DNA from: a virus
Virus record (IMG/VR): IMGVR_UViG_3300044729_000874
Coordinates: 1-24,334 of that record
Length of the DNA stretch: 24,334 nt
Direction: 5' to 3' (one strand)
The notes under the pieces: model-generated
Told to the model about the DNA's origin: nothing
The model's database searches: none
What the model saw: only the letters and a program-made list of their open reading frames with translations
In this document: positions 1,332 to 10,500 of the stretch, in pieces
Layout of the letters: each line of letters begins with the position of its first letter
Numbering within the stretch: the stretch's first letter is position 1
Position numbers and translations under genes: made by a program

Positions 1332-1440
1332 GACGACGAAGTAGGATTCACGTCACTATTCACCCCTCCGGCGCGTAGAGCAATGGATCTAGGGCTGGCA
1401 CGAGTTTTCCTACTTCGACTCGTGCTAGCCCTTTGTTTTT
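1332..1440 (+). ncRNA. Candidate small RNA with a loop-complementary 5' segment
   Basis: The segment lies between a promoter-like sequence and a strong intrinsic terminator and has no credible reading frame. CGAAGTAGGA at 1337-1346 is exactly complementary to TCCTACTTCG at 1408-1417, and that second segment fills 10 of the 12 loop bases of the terminator hairpin. The RNA could therefore form a pseudoknot, or the 5' segment could compete with terminator folding. It is antisense in direction to the surrounding late genes. The start and the existence of the transcript are inferred. Confidence 0.4.
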
Positions 1441-1959: not shown

Positions 1960-2151
1960 TCAGTATATTCCGCCCATTGCAACGCGATTAGCCGATGACA
2001 TTGTTCCACGAGCCTTATTCTGTGATACAGCTGGTCGGTAAAACATGCTTGTAGGCATTGCTTTTGCGGCTTGGGCTTTTATGGCATTCATGCCGCCCAT
2101 TGATTGGATTTTGCTTAAGACTGCCTTATTAAGGCCTTGGCGATTCATCAT
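1960..2151 (-). CDS. Small basic protein of unknown function (63 aa)
   Basis: The protein is Met-, Ala- and Lys-rich (IQSMGGMNAIKAQAAKAM in the first half) with no transmembrane segment and no family I recognise. It starts with two Met codons; either ATG could be used. The upstream bases are AT-rich (gaaaataattatt) with no Shine-Dalgarno sequence, like most minus-strand genes here. It is the last gene before the minus-strand terminator and lies 24 bp after its neighbour, which supports it being real. Its place after the portal gene suggests a head-related accessory protein, but nothing in the sequence shows that directly. Confidence 0.6.
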   Translation of the reverse strand: MMNRQGLNKAVLSKIQSMGGMNAIKAQAAKAMPTSMFYRPAVSQNKARGTMSSANRVAMGGIY

Positions 2152-2392: not shown

Positions 2393-2464
2393 TGGCGGCC
2401 CGTTAACTCGGAAGCGGATTTGGAATCCGATGACCGTCCCCATTTGATCATAGCTCGACGGGCC
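2393..2464 (-). ncRNA. tRNA-Trp-like 72-nt fold without a T arm, encoded CCA end
   Basis: Read on the minus strand, GGCCCGT (2464-2458) pairs perfectly with ACGGGCC (2403-2397) as a 7-bp acceptor-like stem, followed by G and CCA. Inside, ATGATC and GGTCAT form a 6-bp stem (one G.T) with a 10-nt loop containing GGGG. Next to it CGGA/TCCG closes a 7-nt loop TTCCAAA, with T at the position before CCA and A after it, as in a Trp anticodon loop. G is also the usual bacterial tRNA-Trp discriminator base. The T arm is replaced by 11 nt, and the spacer before the first arm is 6 nt instead of 2. It is therefore not a canonical tRNA. It fills most of the 124-bp spacer after the portal gene. Confidence 0.25.
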
Positions 2465-2503
2465 TAGCGAGCATAGCCATGGGAATTGACCTTGTTAGGA
2501 TAG

Positions 2504-4573
2504 TTATCCTTGTTGCATTTGTTGGGTCATTACCCCGCCCATTTGAGCGGGAGCTGTGCCGATGCGACCAATCTCAGCGTTCTGCATTTGTTGAAGCTGG
2601 AATTGGTATTGCTCCATGTATTTTTGAAGCCTTGCACCGAATGCCTCATCCTGCTGTGCGCGAGCTGCCACATCGGGCTGCTGAACATAGGCTTGGATCA
2701 TCTGCATTGCCATCTGTGCGCCATTAGGCTGGGCAGGAACCTCGATGCCAGCAAAGATCTTAGCAAGGTCGTCTGTGACATTCTTGGCAACCTTCTGCTG
2801 CGCCTCCTCAGCTGGTTGGAGGACATAGTCAGCAAAGATCGGATTGATGCTAGATGCCGTGAATTCAAGCAACTTATTCACATCCATGATGCCGTTGCGG
2901 TCGAGCTGCACCAAAGACACCATGTTTTTAAGCTGCGTCTCGGCAGTCTCTGGATCGTTGCTTTGTGAGTCAAAGTTCACCACGATGCTGAAGTTCTCAT
3001 CAGCCGAACCCTTGGTCATCACCTGTGGGTTAGGGTTGCCAGTAACTTGGAAGAACACCTCGTCTGGCCCCATGCGCTGATACAACTTCCACGCCATGTT
3101 CAGCACATCGCGGACATGATCCAAGAACTTAGACACCACGAATTGCTGGCGGGAGGCAGAGATTGGGTTAGACATATCCAGACCAACGGCACGATCTGCC
3201 TGTGCGGTCATGGATACTTCAACCTCAACAGAACCATTGTCGGCTGGAGGCGGTGGCCCCCATTGGATCTCACCAAGGCGACGATACGGAACCCTTACTC
3301 CTGGCCCCCAATCAGAGGGCGGACGACCAGCAGGGTGCAACAATGGAGGGAGAGTAGCCAGAGAAGCACGATCAATACGAGAATCACGCTCGGTCTTGAT
3401 TTGCATTTGCGCTCCACGGAGGATGTCCGAAAAGGTCTGGGTTTCGTACATGCGCTTCTGGTCGTTCGATAGGCGCGTAACCACAAAGGGGTAGTCGTCA
3501 TAGCCGTTAAGAAGTTCGTGTTTGGCGAAGCCTTCGGTAGTTGGGTGGAAGACTGTACAGTAGATTCCCTCAGAACCATCCTCCTCGTCGATCAAACGCT
3601 GGTAGCCATACACCACCATAACAAGGTCGTTGTCGTCCGTGATGGGAAGGCGGTCGATTGTCTTGAGCTTCTCGCCGTCTAGGTACATGCTATCTTTGCC
3701 ACGGAGACGCTCGATAGCATTCTCAACCCAGTCGGCATCCCAGCCTTCGGTGGCTACCTTCTTCTCAAGCTCCTGCGCGGTCATGAATGTACGCCAGAAA
3801 ACATACGGAGCGCGTTGAGGATCGGTCACATACGATGGGAAAAGCACCTCGCCATCAGGGGCGCATGAGTAAACTACTGGGCAATCTACCGATGTACGAG
3901 GAATTGAAACTTCAGCCAGACCTTTCTTGCGAAGATCCATAATGGCTTTCTTGGCGCGTTTGTCAGACAAGTCGGGGAAGGCAGTCTGCAACATGCCAAA
4001 TACCATCTCGTCATCAGCACCACTAACAATAAGTTCCGCTAGATCGGGGGAGACTTGTGCGATTTCCTCGATGGATACCTGTTGTAAATATGTCCTTTTT
4101 TCACGCTTCCATCCGACATATGACACCATCAACCCCTTCTCTAGCAGATAATTAGCACCCAATTCCATCTGTTGACGGAAATTCGGGATGTATGTGGAGC
4201 GCATCCACTTAAGGAATCCAGACACCATTGAGGCCCGTGGCATGGATGCCATTGAAGTTGGGAATGCCTTAATGTGGGAACGCTGCAATGCTTGGTCTAG
4301 AATGGCCACAAATGCGTCGATACGCTCTCCCACAACATTGACCTCAATATCACTCGCTCCCTGCCAAGGGAAGGCATTTGCGCCCTGTTTGCGGAGGTCG
4401 TCAGACTTGCCTTCCCAAAGGTTTCGGCGGTCATCATACGAGCGCAAGCAAGCCTCGAAATACTCATCCAAGTCGATAAGGCACTTGTCGTAGGCATCAG
4501 CCAACGCCATGACATTTGGGCCGTCCTCGGCGTAGATCATCGACTCTTCTTGCTCTTCTGTTGGTGCGCTCAT
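2504..4573 (-). CDS. Portal protein (689 aa)
   Basis: The portal forms the dodecameric ring at one capsid vertex through which the terminase pumps DNA and to which the tail attaches. The call rests on length (P22 portal is 725 aa), the signature region near residues 64-90 (NAFPWQGASDIEV then VNVVGERIDAFVAIL), an aromatic-rich central region and a C-terminal part rich in Gln, Ala and Met (about 605-689), typical of the barrel or crown region of P22-like portals. It follows the large terminase after only two small genes. The ATG overlaps the stop of the AT-hook gene by 4 bp (ATGA), so translation is probably coupled; no Shine-Dalgarno is visible. It ends in QQMQQG just before the tRNA-like spacer. 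Confidence 0.9.
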   Translation of the reverse strand: MSAPTEEQEESMIYAEDGPNVMALADAYDKCLIDLDEYFEACLRSYDDRRNLWEGKSDDLRKQGANAFPWQGASDIEVNVVGERIDAFVAILDQALQRSHIKAFPTSMASMPRASMVSGFLKWMRSTYIPNFRQQMELGANYLLEKGLMVSYVGWKREKRTYLQQVSIEEIAQVSPDLAELIVSGADDEMVFGMLQTAFPDLSDKRAKKAIMDLRKKGLAEVSIPRTSVDCPVVYSCAPDGEVLFPSYVTDPQRAPYVFWRTFMTAQELEKKVATEGWDADWVENAIERLRGKDSMYLDGEKLKTIDRLPITDDNDLVMVVYGYQRLIDEEDGSEGIYCTVFHPTTEGFAKHELLNGYDDYPFVVTRLSNDQKRMYETQTFSDILRGAQMQIKTERDSRIDRASLATLPPLLHPAGRPPSDWGPGVRVPYRRLGEIQWGPPPPADNGSVEVEVSMTAQADRAVGLDMSNPISASRQQFVVSKFLDHVRDVLNMAWKLYQRMGPDEVFFQVTGNPNPQVMTKGSADENFSIVVNFDSQSNDPETAETQLKNMVSLVQLDRNGIMDVNKLLEFTASSINPIFADYVLQPAEEAQQKVAKNVTDDLAKIFAGIEVPAQPNGAQMAMQMIQAYVQQPDVAARAQQDEAFGARLQKYMEQYQFQLQQMQNAEIGRIGTAPAQMGGVMTQQMQQG

Positions 4574-5008: not shown

Positions 5009-6606
5009 TAGTAGCCTCCTGCTCCCTGTCTTGTAGCAAGATTTCTGGATTCGTCAACATGATCTATTCCTGCAATAGCGGCGTAGCGTAGCACATCGAC
5101 TGGATCTTTCCACGCCTCCTTCAAACCCCCATCACCCGTGTATTCACTCAGAGCTTGGATGATATTCTCGCATTCGGAGGAGACATAGAAATGCGGTCGG
5201 TTGACCGAATCTGCAGGTCTAGTGGTGTCCCATGACATCTTGCCAATAAGTGCCTGTAGCCCATCGTCGATGTCTAACCCTGGAGCTGGAATACAAACCA
5301 TACCAGCATCATTCAAATCCTCGATGATACTTGATGCACCATCCGCAGACTGGTACTTGGCAGCTCCAAGACGAGGGTCAATCAGTCTCTCAAAAATCTT
5401 TTCGTCACCTTCCAGTTCGGCAATCAAATCCATGTAGTCACGGATACCAAACCCTTGGCCCTTAGCCCCTTGTCCTGGCATCCACTTGCCACCCTTCCAC
5501 TCAGCCCAGTCACCTACATCAACACCCGGCCACTCACGATATACCCAAAATGTGCCAGACGCATCCACAGCAATCCAAGCCATAAACCAATTCTTTGCAC
5601 CCGCCGGGTCAATAATCTGATAGCGAGTAACATTCGTAGTTGGGATCTCTGATGGCTGGACAACATTGACTTCTTTATTGAACTTGGGAAACTTGGTGGC
5701 GTGGGACTTAACTGGAACCCCATACGCACGAATTAGGATCTCCTCCCTTGGCCTCCCCACCAGTGTCTCCTTAATTCGCTCGTAGCCACCGAAAGGGTTA
5801 TCTTTGCTATGGAAGTAGTGAACGCTGGCATTGCGTTTCTTACTCCGCTGGACATAGGGTACTAGCTCACCGTTGAGCAGCTCAGCCTCGACGCTCTGAA
5901 CGCTTGTAGCACCATCTAAGTATTCCTTAATAACTTCCGTCCACCCGTCAATCGGCGTGAATGTTACCAGCATCTTGGAGTTGCGGGTAGCAAGACGGAA
6001 GCGCAAGGTGTCAATAAGCTCATTACCAAGTAAGTACTCATCGAGCCATACGCCGATGTTGTGCCACTGGGGGTCACGGCTACCAAGCTCTGCGCCTTCT
6101 AGGATAGTTGGGTTGTTCTGATACTGAGAGTATGTCTTAAAGATGATCTGGGAAGCATTGGGTAGGATCAACGAGTTATCCGTGAACCCGTTCTTCTTCG
6201 TGTACGAGATGTAAGCGTTAGCCGAGGTTTGCTTTGTCCTCATTTCATGCGGCAACCAGTTCCACACCGCGCTTTGTTGCTGGCGGATGCTGACCTCCGA
6301 TGTCTGTGCAAAACAGAAGATCTCTGACTTTGGGTTTTCAATGGCGGCTTTGACCACGCAGTAAGAACCCCACGCAGTTTTGCCGCTGCGATTTCCCCCA
6401 AGTGCCAGAACCTCAGAGACTTGCGCTAGTTGCTCTTCAGCTTTCTCCCAGTGCGGGAGCCTAAACCCGTAGCGGAATGGGTCTTTCTCAGCGTTCTCGA
6501 TGGCCTCATGGTACACTCGATGAAGCTCAATAAGATCATCTGGCTCCATCAAGACTACCTCGTCATCGCTGGGAGGCTGAAGGATTGGATGTTTGCGCCA
6601 CTGCAT
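5008..6606 (-). CDS. terL: Terminase large subunit (532 aa)
   Basis: This ATP-driven motor and nuclease cuts concatemeric DNA and packages it through the portal. A Walker A motif GGNRSGKT lies at residues 70-77, a Walker B-like IGVWLDE at 184-190 and a coupling-type LVTFTP at 213-218. The C-terminal RNase H-fold nuclease is indicated by IIDPAGAKN (Asp333), RLIDPRLG (Asp410) and DPVDVLRYA (Asp501/504), spaced as expected for the metal-binding acidic residues. The length is normal for the family. The start overlaps the stop of the zinc-finger gene; the leader (cataaaacgaacta) is A/C-rich without Shine-Dalgarno. With the small subunit two genes upstream and the portal three downstream, this is the packaging module. 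Confidence 0.95.
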   Translation of the reverse strand: MQWRKHPILQPPSDDEVVLMEPDDLIELHRVYHEAIENAEKDPFRYGFRLPHWEKAEEQLAQVSEVLALGGNRSGKTAWGSYCVVKAAIENPKSEIFCFAQTSEVSIRQQQSAVWNWLPHEMRTKQTSANAYISYTKKNGFTDNSLILPNASQIIFKTYSQYQNNPTILEGAELGSRDPQWHNIGVWLDEYLLGNELIDTLRFRLATRNSKMLVTFTPIDGWTEVIKEYLDGATSVQSVEAELLNGELVPYVQRSKKRNASVHYFHSKDNPFGGYERIKETLVGRPREEILIRAYGVPVKSHATKFPKFNKEVNVVQPSEIPTTNVTRYQIIDPAGAKNWFMAWIAVDASGTFWVYREWPGVDVGDWAEWKGGKWMPGQGAKGQGFGIRDYMDLIAELEGDEKIFERLIDPRLGAAKYQSADGASSIIEDLNDAGMVCIPAPGLDIDDGLQALIGKMSWDTTRPADSVNRPHFYVSSECENIIQALSEYTGDGGLKEAWKDPVDVLRYAAIAGIDHVDESRNLATRQGAGGY

Positions 6607-7507: not shown

Positions 7508-10500
7508 TTGTTTTGGTCGCGTTCTTGCGACTGCCCACTTATAGCAAGAGAAATGCTTCTGGCAAGAGCTGGATTGCGATATTTTACTTCACTTCTCCTT
7601 GGTTGTTTTTGATTTGTCCTTATGGCTTTGGGTTTGCCTTGTGGAACATATCGCATCTGACCAGTCTGCGAAATCTTCCGCATCTCTGGGGTGATGTTCA
7701 CCTTCCAGATTGGTGACTTTTTGTCTGGAAACCCTTCCGGGTCTTCTAAGTATGCCGGTTCAGTTATTATCTCTGATTTCTCGACCTTACCGCCCCACTG
7801 TTTCACATACTTGCCAACTTCTTTCGGGAGCATGTTGTCGTAGAACCCTTTCATTCCCTCACCGCCAACCTTTAGGTCTAGACCACTATATGAGACATCG
7901 GACTTTCCGTTTAATACACGGAACTCTTCAGCTTTACGCTCATATTCATCAAACAACGGACTATCATATCCTACTCCGGGTTGTTGCAGTTTTTTTCTGG
8001 CTTCTTCCGCTGCGATTTTTGCGCGTTGAATCTGTTGCGGAGTCCCTTTAGGGGACATATCAGAAATCACCTTTTCTGCTAACTCCTTGCCAATTACATC
8101 TGGAAGTGCCTCAAGCGTGCTTTGTTGAGTAATAACATTATTATTGCCCCTTGTCCCGTAAACAGTTACGCGATTACTACCATCAATCCGGCGGACTTCT
8201 ATTGAGTCAAGAGACTTACTTAAATCAAACCGCTCATTCTGCGTCTCTCCAGTCGTCCAACCAATCCAATCCTTGCCACCATCCACGGCATCACGCAGCG
8301 CGCGTTTGAAGAGTTGGAGTGGCCAAGTGGTACGGAATGGTGCGTCCGCAACACCACCTTTAAGATGTTCACCGCCTTCAATAATCTCGTCGATATAAGC
8401 CTGTCGCTGATCATCTGGCATTGCATTCCATGTTTCGTCGGCTATGCCAAAAAACTCTTTTGCTTGTGATTGTGTTGGAGTGGTTCCAGTTGCGATGGCA
8501 TACCCCTTCTTCCTACCCTCCTGGTGTCTATCAGATTGGAATTCCTCTACGAATAATCCCTTGCTTCCATTGTCCAGCGTGCGCTCGTTTGTACGCATGT
8601 GGGCGACATAGTTTGGAATGTCTGGGAAGTGGGAGGAGGTGTATTCTGATACTGCCTTCTCACGATAGAACGGCTGCACTTCAAGATCGTTCCGGCCTTT
8701 GAACATGTCAGCCATCTCGGCTTTCGCTTTGGCTTCTGTGTCGAAAGTAAGTCCGCCAAGCTGACCGCTGCCATCTTTGTAGGCGATGACGTATTGAGCC
8801 TTTGTGGTGTGCGGCATCGCCAGCACCACCTCGCGGTAGTTCTCACCGCCGGGGAGGACATATTGGGAGAATTTAGTTGGCCTTGTAGGCTTAGATGAGT
8901 CAAACGCTTCTGATCTAGCTTTTTCTGCTTGCACTCGTTTGGTTGCATATTCCCATTCCATCTCATCAAGTTTACTTTTAGCATCAGCATCCTTTATCTT
9001 TCCAGCTTTAATAACCGCACGATATTCCGTTAAATATCTTTGATGTGAGTTATACGCTTCAGAAGCAAGTCTTTCAGCTTTAGCAACTAGCATAGGGTTT
9101 TCGGCATTTGGCACATCACTCTGAATGACCTCTTCAAATTTAGCCCTACCATCATTACGAAGGTAGTTAAGCAGATCATCCTTGGATACTTTTCCGTCCT
9201 TCTCGAGACTTGCCAATTCTTGTTCTATTCCGCTCCACTTGATTTCGTCAGCTTTTACTCCACTACCCCTTGTCGGGTCAATTGTAGCCATGATCTGCTG
9301 CTTCGTGGCGCGTGTTGGAACCTTATCAGAAATAACACGCTCAAGTTGAGAATAGAATTTATCATCATCTATTAACCTTGCCGTATTTGGCTCACCTTTC
9401 GGCATTAACCTTACTTGCCCTTCTTGACCTTGACCTTGCGGCTGTGCAACTCCTTCTTGAGCTTGGACTGCTGCTTGCTGGTCAATGGTGACACCTTGCT
9501 TAGAAGGTATCCTACCTGTTTTTTGCTTTTTGTTTTCATAAATTAACTCTCCATTTCGATTGAATCTTGGCGACTGGGGCATCAAGTTATCACGAAGGCT
9601 GTAATACGATGTTGGGCCGTATGGAATAATAACATCGCCAGAAGTCTTGATTGCGCTCTGAAGTCGGTCAAATGCAAATGTTCGGTAAATTCCAGTTACA
9701 AGGTCTGGCGACACCTTCTGCATCATTGGGTTGATTCCAAGTTGGCGATTGGTCTGAAGACCTTGAACAGAGTTAATAAAGTTCTTCCGTCTCTGCCAGT
9801 TTTTAGGGTCTACGCTTTGATAGTAAGCGTCAGTCGATTCACCCTTGTTTTGTATCTCAACGGACTTCTCAATATCCTCGTAGATCTTCTTGCGAGTAAG
9901 GTTGAGTTCTTTGGCGATCTTGTTTTTAACTGCTCGGTCAACATTCTTCTCAAGTTGGCGCAAGTCCATTGCCTCAAGATACAAGCGACCTTTTTTAAGC
10001 ACCCATTTTGTAGGAACCACATAATTCTCCGTAAGACCACCAAATTGCTCGGAACGACCTTGCTTGATTGGTTTATTGACAAGAAGAGTGCCATGTTTTG
10101 TCGGGACTTCAATTTCAGATTGGAGTAGTAAAGCCTTACCAAATTCACCATTATCAATAACGCCAGCTTCTTCTAATGCTTTTAAGTGGTCATCAGTAAG
10201 AATTCCTTCTCCGTTGCCGTTCTTGTCTGGGATAAGAACACCGTTTGGCAGCTTCTCGCCACGCTCTACGATTTGCTTATTAACTTGATCTAAAACGCTT
10301 GTCGCTTGATAGTGCTTAGGGTTATCGGATTTAACATCAACAACCTTCTGAACTCTCGCTGCTTTTGGCTTGCCAGCGGTTTCTCGGTACATTTGGCGCA
10401 CCATCGCCTTAACTTCTGGCAGCTCCCTAAACCCGTCAGCAAGCAGCCCTGTACCCATCACCATGCGTCCACCAGCATCAGTCGCTCCACCCATCTTGAA

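Follow-up and report, generated by a model that had tools for sequence, protein, structure and literature searches.

A compact RNA element in the spacer downstream of a phage portal-like gene is a member of an undescribed structured RNA family that is absent from Rfam. Comparison of copies of its sequence makes it almost certain that the family is pseudoknotted and, because of its apical loop, its 3′ end, and its genomic neighbourhood, mimicry of tRNA-Trp appears rather probable. The best explanation, to which we give about an even chance, is a stand-alone pseudoknotted tRNA-Trp mimic that would act in trans, perhaps as a counter-defence decoy. The family, new to Rfam and backed by covariation, is found in phages that differ widely in size and host, cultured Streptomyces phages included.

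The Locus and the Element as First Described

The window, that is, the whole stretch of DNA analysed, is a 24,334-base virus record with phage structural genes on the minus strand, to which the coordinates of the genes and element parts given below refer. The element occupies a 124-bp spacer, present as the earlier note had described it, between an upstream portal-like gene (2504–4573, 689 aa) and a downstream 67-aa ORF (2176–2379). The portal-like protein shares 54.9% identity with a “hypothetical protein” of Phage C75C1 and ~22% identity with annotated phage portal proteins. In relatives with 95–98% portal identity, a hot spot of tiny genes follows the portal gene; there the element forms an optional cassette in the spacer. 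The string TATCCTAACAA, located at window position 2500 (minus strand), where the element spacer starts, is found again at 2181 (minus strand), in the leader of a 63-aa ORF. A further segment of the window, 1016–1959 (~945 bp), is hairpin-rich and holds no credible gene; its DNA is ~80–95% conserved in relatives, and its comparison with Rfam returned no convincing family.

The earlier note had drawn the element at 2393–2464 as a T-armless tRNA-Trp. Re-reading of the letters confirmed a perfect 7-bp stem GGCCCGT/ACGGGCC (2464–2458 with 2403–2397), followed by GCCA at 2396–2393, and the hairpin CGGA-TTCCAAA-TCCG with CCA at the anticodon position. ARAGORN detected no tRNA in the window, and neither did an Rfam search; the tRNA model RF00005 had no match in the window and 14 relatives, where ARAGORN likewise reported none. 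The single-sequence fold was no better than that of shuffled sequences (z-scores of −1.0 for the 72-mer and +0.5 for the spacer). Because the fold z-scores were insignificant and the tRNA and Rfam searches empty, the sequence alone could not decide the matter.

Architecture of the Pseudoknotted Element

The element reaches upstream to about 2485, so that the limits drawn previously were too short. At its 5′ end, a strand of helix Pa (TTCCCAT, 2479–2485) pairs with ATGGGGA (2437–2443), forming 7 bp in the window. Next comes helix Pb, in which GCTCG (2468–2472) pairs with CGAGC (2453–2457). A connector, CTA in the window (2465–2467) and CTT in most copies, would cross the pseudoknot helix and is 3 nt long in every copy listed. 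It leads into GGCCCGT (2458–2464), the 5′ strand of the acceptor-like helix, which is directly abutted by the 3′ strand of Pb and pairs with ACGGGCC (2397–2403); this 7-bp helix is present in all copies. The 3′ strand of Pa is flush with the anticodon-like arm Pc (CGG-TCAT-CGGA-TTCCAAA-TCCG-CTT-CCG, 2409–2436), whose 7-nt loop TTCCAAA lies at 2419–2425. The linker AGTTA (2404–2408), which reads AGT(T/C)A in all copies and was mostly part of the search pattern, connects Pc to the 3′ pseudoknot strand, after which a discriminator-like G and CCA (2393–2396) are encoded.

Type 1 and type 2 copies (the latter being L155, L156, and L158) were folded with both acceptor strands held open and compared. 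They fold mostly alike despite the unrelated 5′ half of type 2: Pa and Pb form a long hairpin with a 10-nt loop made of CUU, or similar, plus GGCCCGU, and then Pc and ACGGGCC follow. Because the acceptor-like 5′ strand sits in the 10-nt loop of the separate hairpin Pb, the acceptor-like stem is, as read from the sequences, the second stem of a pseudoknot. At the flush position of Pa, unrelated sequences pair in type 2 and type 3 copies; L183 and L002 have an imperfect Pa. The D-arm-like hairpin of the original drawing is not conserved: it has 4 bp in the window, but the other types form no more than 3 bp at the same place. The T-armless cloverleaf with a D arm was rejected on this account, as well as because the covarying upstream hairpin turns the acceptor-like helix into a pseudoknot.

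Collection of Copies and Covariation

A first alignment contained 11 further distinct copies from close relatives. A covariance model made from the first copies (R1) led to distant copies in other records, and string patterns together with a second covariance model (R3) led to further ones. The last pattern scan, of IMG/VR, gave 61 stretches. Taken together, the searches yielded 43 distinct copies with the Pb helix, that of the window included, across phage contigs; isolated Streptomyces phages such as Gilson were among the carriers. Since the collection scans relied on exact or gapped strings, constancy of TTGGCCCGTC and AGTNAACGGGCC in the last set was partly imposed by the pattern and was excluded as evidence. 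Pattern matches in L276/L313 and L247 look like chance. A single copy was found in each of 10 records with a match. The record of L304, with an element copy at 9189–9279 (minus strand), has a second, weaker covariance-model match at 2668–2755 (plus strand, 30.7 bits).

The stems proposed in the earlier note as a place to look for compensatory changes did show them in the acceptor-like stem and the anticodon-like arm, both of which covary between copies. In L162, L183, and L022, GGCCUAU/AUAGGCC replaces GGCCCGU/ACGGGCC, i.e., two compensatory pairs, and the 7-bp stem can be regarded as genuine. For Pb, the covariation score calculated over 28 distinct Pb sequences was 0.962 versus 0.185 ± 0.039 for shuffled sets (0/500); 91.1% of cells were paired (37–56% in slid controls), and five of the six pairs had changed on both sides. 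Shuffling tests of the architecture gave p ~6 × 10−4 for type 1 and p ≤ 4 × 10−4 for type 2. Type 3 copies, with Pa UUUC(A)GGCUG/CAGCCGAAA and Pb CCACG/CGUGG, again have exactly 3 + 7 nt in the Pb loop and a Pa flush with Pc. The architecture, as defined on types 1 and 2, held in this later-found, independent set (p = 5 × 10−5 for L237 and 8 × 10−4 for L239).

The element matched no Rfam family with credible coverage, even at E 10, and a known riboswitch, ribozyme, tRNA, or sRNA was accordingly dismissed. Bacterial contigs scanned with a 30-base exact string, which can detect only near copies, contained none, and a looser pattern returned six bacterial stretches, none of them with the architecture. 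A search of 296 genomes of one phylum produced no match, a result that excludes only copies near the searched strings. When the window or the type-3 element was compared by BLAST with annotated phages and plasmids, nothing convincing was found.

The Anticodon-Like Loop, the 3′ End, and Neighbouring tRNA Genes

Two properties that the search pattern did not impose recur throughout the collection: the motif N-UCCA-N in a 7-nt apical loop (41 of the 43 distinct copies), and a distance of 14–15 nt from this loop to the pseudoknot strand (40 of the 43). The loop fits that of a tRNA-Trp anticodon, with any base at position 32, U33, CCA, and mostly A37; position 37 is A in most copies and U in Gilson-type copies. 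The exceptions at the anticodon position are CUA in L211 and CAA in L198, two relatives of the window. Many viral tRNA-Trp genes have the window 17-mer ATCGGATTCCAAATCCG, letter for letter, as their anticodon arm. At the 3′ end, the letters after the helix, tallied over 44 entries, were GCCA (23), TTCA (11), TGCC(A) (5), GTCA (4), and one chance hit. CCA is thus not strict, and conservation seems to continue past it into AAU/ACU.

In large phages, copies of the element lie within tRNA arrays or next to tRNA genes. In Streptomyces phages Gilson, Emma1919, and Francob, a copy without RNA annotation is located just after tRNA-Arg(cct) and before tmRNA; in Streptomyces phage Comrade, a copy lies between an annotated tRNA-Ser and tmRNA. 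This tRNA-Ser(tcg) (L315:698–779), situated between tRNA-Arg and the copy, is read by ARAGORN with anticodon cga. The element is also inside other tRNA arrays (L298/L305 and L281/L310), that of L281 having a normal tRNA-Trp as well, and L296/L311 have tRNA genes within a few kilobases of it. Near most copies in small phages, no tRNA was recognised; copies of type 3 follow an ATPase gene elsewhere in the genome. What stood of the tRNA-Trp likeness claimed at the outset is a likeness at the level of the family (the loop, the helix, mostly G plus CCA, and the tRNA arrays), while the T-armless cloverleaf did not hold.

In mid-size relatives, irregular tRNA-like genes occur near copies of the element (L238, L268, L269, L283, and L295). 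That of L238 (a 4-nt anticodon loop and a fold z-score of −3.7) lies at 5221–5296 (minus strand) and that of L268 at 1352–1414 (plus strand); that of L269 is upstream of the element copy, and those of L283 and L295 are beside it. Some of these genes have an encoded CCA, 4-nt or 6-nt anticodon loops, or a very small D arm, and ARAGORN misses them or cannot name them.

Comparison with Known RNAs and Possible Role

Compared with a canonical tRNA, the element has the 7-bp acceptor stem with a CCA-type end, encoded or added in tRNAs (GCCA in the window, and GCCA, TTCA, GTCA, or TGCCA elsewhere), and the 7-nt anticodon loop with U33 and purine 37, but it is without a T arm and has no conserved D arm. 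Like the T-armless and armless tRNAs of nematode mitochondria, it combines acceptor-like and anticodon-like arms in the absence of a T arm, with ~72 nt in the part first drawn. A T-armless tRNA, however, has a conserved D arm and a 5′ end at the acceptor strand, whereas here pairing extends 5′ of that strand, the 5′ hairpin forms a pseudoknot with it, and the setting is not mitochondrial. Plant viruses offer an architectural parallel. In turnip yellow mosaic virus (TYMV), the 3′ end is a tRNA-like structure built with pseudoknots and having a CCA-type 3′ end. In the tRNA-like structure of tobacco mosaic virus (TMV), too, pseudoknots help to build the tRNA-like molecule, which has a CCA-type 3′ end (PMC5723415). 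A pseudoknot that builds an acceptor arm is likewise found in the element, where Pb and the 7-bp helix covary and would stack on each other. The plant-virus structures are 3′ genome ends, whereas the element is a separate RNA gene between DNA-phage genes, and its knot differs in kind, the 7-bp acceptor-like helix being formed inside the loop of an upstream hairpin. Should the element be a tRNA mimic, DNA phages would resemble plant RNA viruses in using a pseudoknot to achieve likeness to tRNA.

Comparison of the copies shows that Pb, usually prolonged by Pa, presents GGCCCGU in the 10-nt loop, that this strand pairs with the downstream ACGGGCC in an acceptor-like helix of 7 bp, and that N-(C/U)CA, in most cases GCCA, comes next; the separate Pc arm, ~9–10 nt per side, carries the 7-nt loop with U33-CCA-A37. 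The helix may stack on Pb, which has at least 5 bp in nearly all copies, in the manner of an acceptor/T minihelix, and Pc may substitute for the anticodon/D stack. Such an RNA could vie with the host's tRNA-Trp for a partner that binds tRNAs, most likely a defence protein that cleaves or senses them, and would then be a decoy rather than a translating tRNA.

Several other readings have to be weighed against this one. That the element is a chance palindrome, or codes for a 24-residue N-terminal extension, agrees with the insignificant MFE z-scores and with a frame that is open in the window, but covariation of the acceptor-like stem and of Pb argues against both, and the stems are kept where the extension (MIKWGRSSDSKSASELTGRQSN) is disrupted: it contains an in-frame stop in L183, is frameshifted in L198, and continues differently in L010. 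Both readings were ruled out by the Pb covariation and the broken frames, leaving them hardly any probability; the earlier note's own test of the extension favoured RNA, and the room for chance that it had allowed was closed by the covarying stem and the UCCA loop of 41 of the 43 copies. An attachment-site tRNA remnant was set aside, the stems being maintained. A role in cis, as leader or processing signal of the 67-aa gene, would suit an element whose 3′ end lies 13 nt upstream of the start codon in the window, and at a similar distance in many close relatives, at a locus whose genes lack a clear Shine–Dalgarno sequence. The gene is, however, no fixed partner of the RNA: many relatives have it without the element before it, element B (see below) or a different gene comes next in others, type-3 copies follow the ATPase gene, and Streptomyces phage copies are in tRNA arrays. 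Because the RNA occurs beside unrelated genes, cis-regulation is improbable. A minimal T-armless tRNA-Trp, aminoacylated and decoding UGG, as the CCA at the anticodon position, the discriminator G, the encoded CCA, and the 4-bp D arm of the window would have it, is more improbable still: other types have no D arm, the pseudoknotting Pb is conserved, two copies have CUA or CAA in the loop, and L281 has a normal tRNA-Trp in its array. Translational use is unlikely because there is no T arm and known armless tRNAs need adapted partners, those of nematode mitochondria working with adapted partner proteins (PMC7730189, PMC12221289); use by EF-Tu is unlikely as well, since with neither a D nor a T arm there is no elbow.

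The strongest competitor, which is a real possibility albeit a minor one, holds that the pseudoknot core binds a partner such as a toxin or a phage protein and that the element came to resemble tRNA-Trp by convergence. A conserved core is suggested by the 3-nt connector, the helix, and AGUYA; the constancy of the latter two, partly an artefact of the search pattern, could reflect a core that binds protein and has nothing to do with tRNA. ToxI antitoxins, too, form pseudoknots (PMC5772629), phage PhiTE escapes ToxIN through RNA mimicry (PMC3475682), and abiF RNAs, which like ToxI and the element are compact, occur in some of the same phages. Type III antitoxins, however, are tandem repeats beside an endoribonuclease toxin gene, whereas the element is single-copy and adjoins no recognised toxin gene (Abi_2 being the only toxin family searched); moreover, a partner-binding core leaves the location in tRNA arrays and the 7-nt UCCA loop unexplained. 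Within the tRNA-Trp mimicry that we favour, a decoy is preferred because phage tRNAs evade tRNA-targeting defence (PMC10264068, PMC11555353) and phages escape ToxIN by RNA mimicry, although as a claim of its own the counter-defence role is tentative. The element shares with such phage tRNAs the same kind of tRNA array and a tRNA identity kept in the anticodon loop; they are complete cloverleafs that restore translation, whereas it has no arms for that. A more general proposal, and a doubtful one, is that a widespread class of tRNA-Trp-mimicking RNAs shields phages in trans from a tRNA-Trp-directed nuclease or sensor, travelling with tRNA-like and abiF-type decoys. The presence in tRNA arrays of a compact RNA unlikely to serve translation would bear on the question of why phages carry such arrays.

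abiF RNAs and Element B in the Same Phages

The abiF RNA (RF03085) was detected at 47.2 bits in the records of L008 and L032, at 37.5 bits in that of L021, and at 36.5 bits in that of L054; it lies at 2021–2057 (minus strand) in L266, from the record of L008, and at 2023–2059 (plus strand) in L267, from the record of L021. In element-bearing and related phages, abiF RNAs are found just after a 195-aa DnaC-like ATPase gene, and weaker matches occur near type-3 or type-4 copies. No abiF RNA was found in the window at E ≤ 10, and no Abi_2 gene in the 18 records searched, a set outside which the record of L032 lies. The AbiF toxin of C. difficile is neutralised by RCd22, an RNA with the abiF motif (PMC12373285); the phage abiF RNAs may possibly be antitoxin RNAs that lack the toxin.

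Another conserved, unannotated RNA candidate, element B, was observed at the same post-portal hot spot (L010:5107–5189, plus strand; L155:2700–2782, minus strand; L069:6894–6976; and L138:3906–3988). A peptide read from it had no match. Its hairpin, formed around GACG, covaries (CACAG/CTGTG, CGCAG/CTGCG, and TACAT/ATGTA). In some relatives, element B comes after the pseudoknot element; in L225/L226 it is followed by an HNH-like gene, and in L244 and L260 a sequence resembling B lies before the pseudoknot element.
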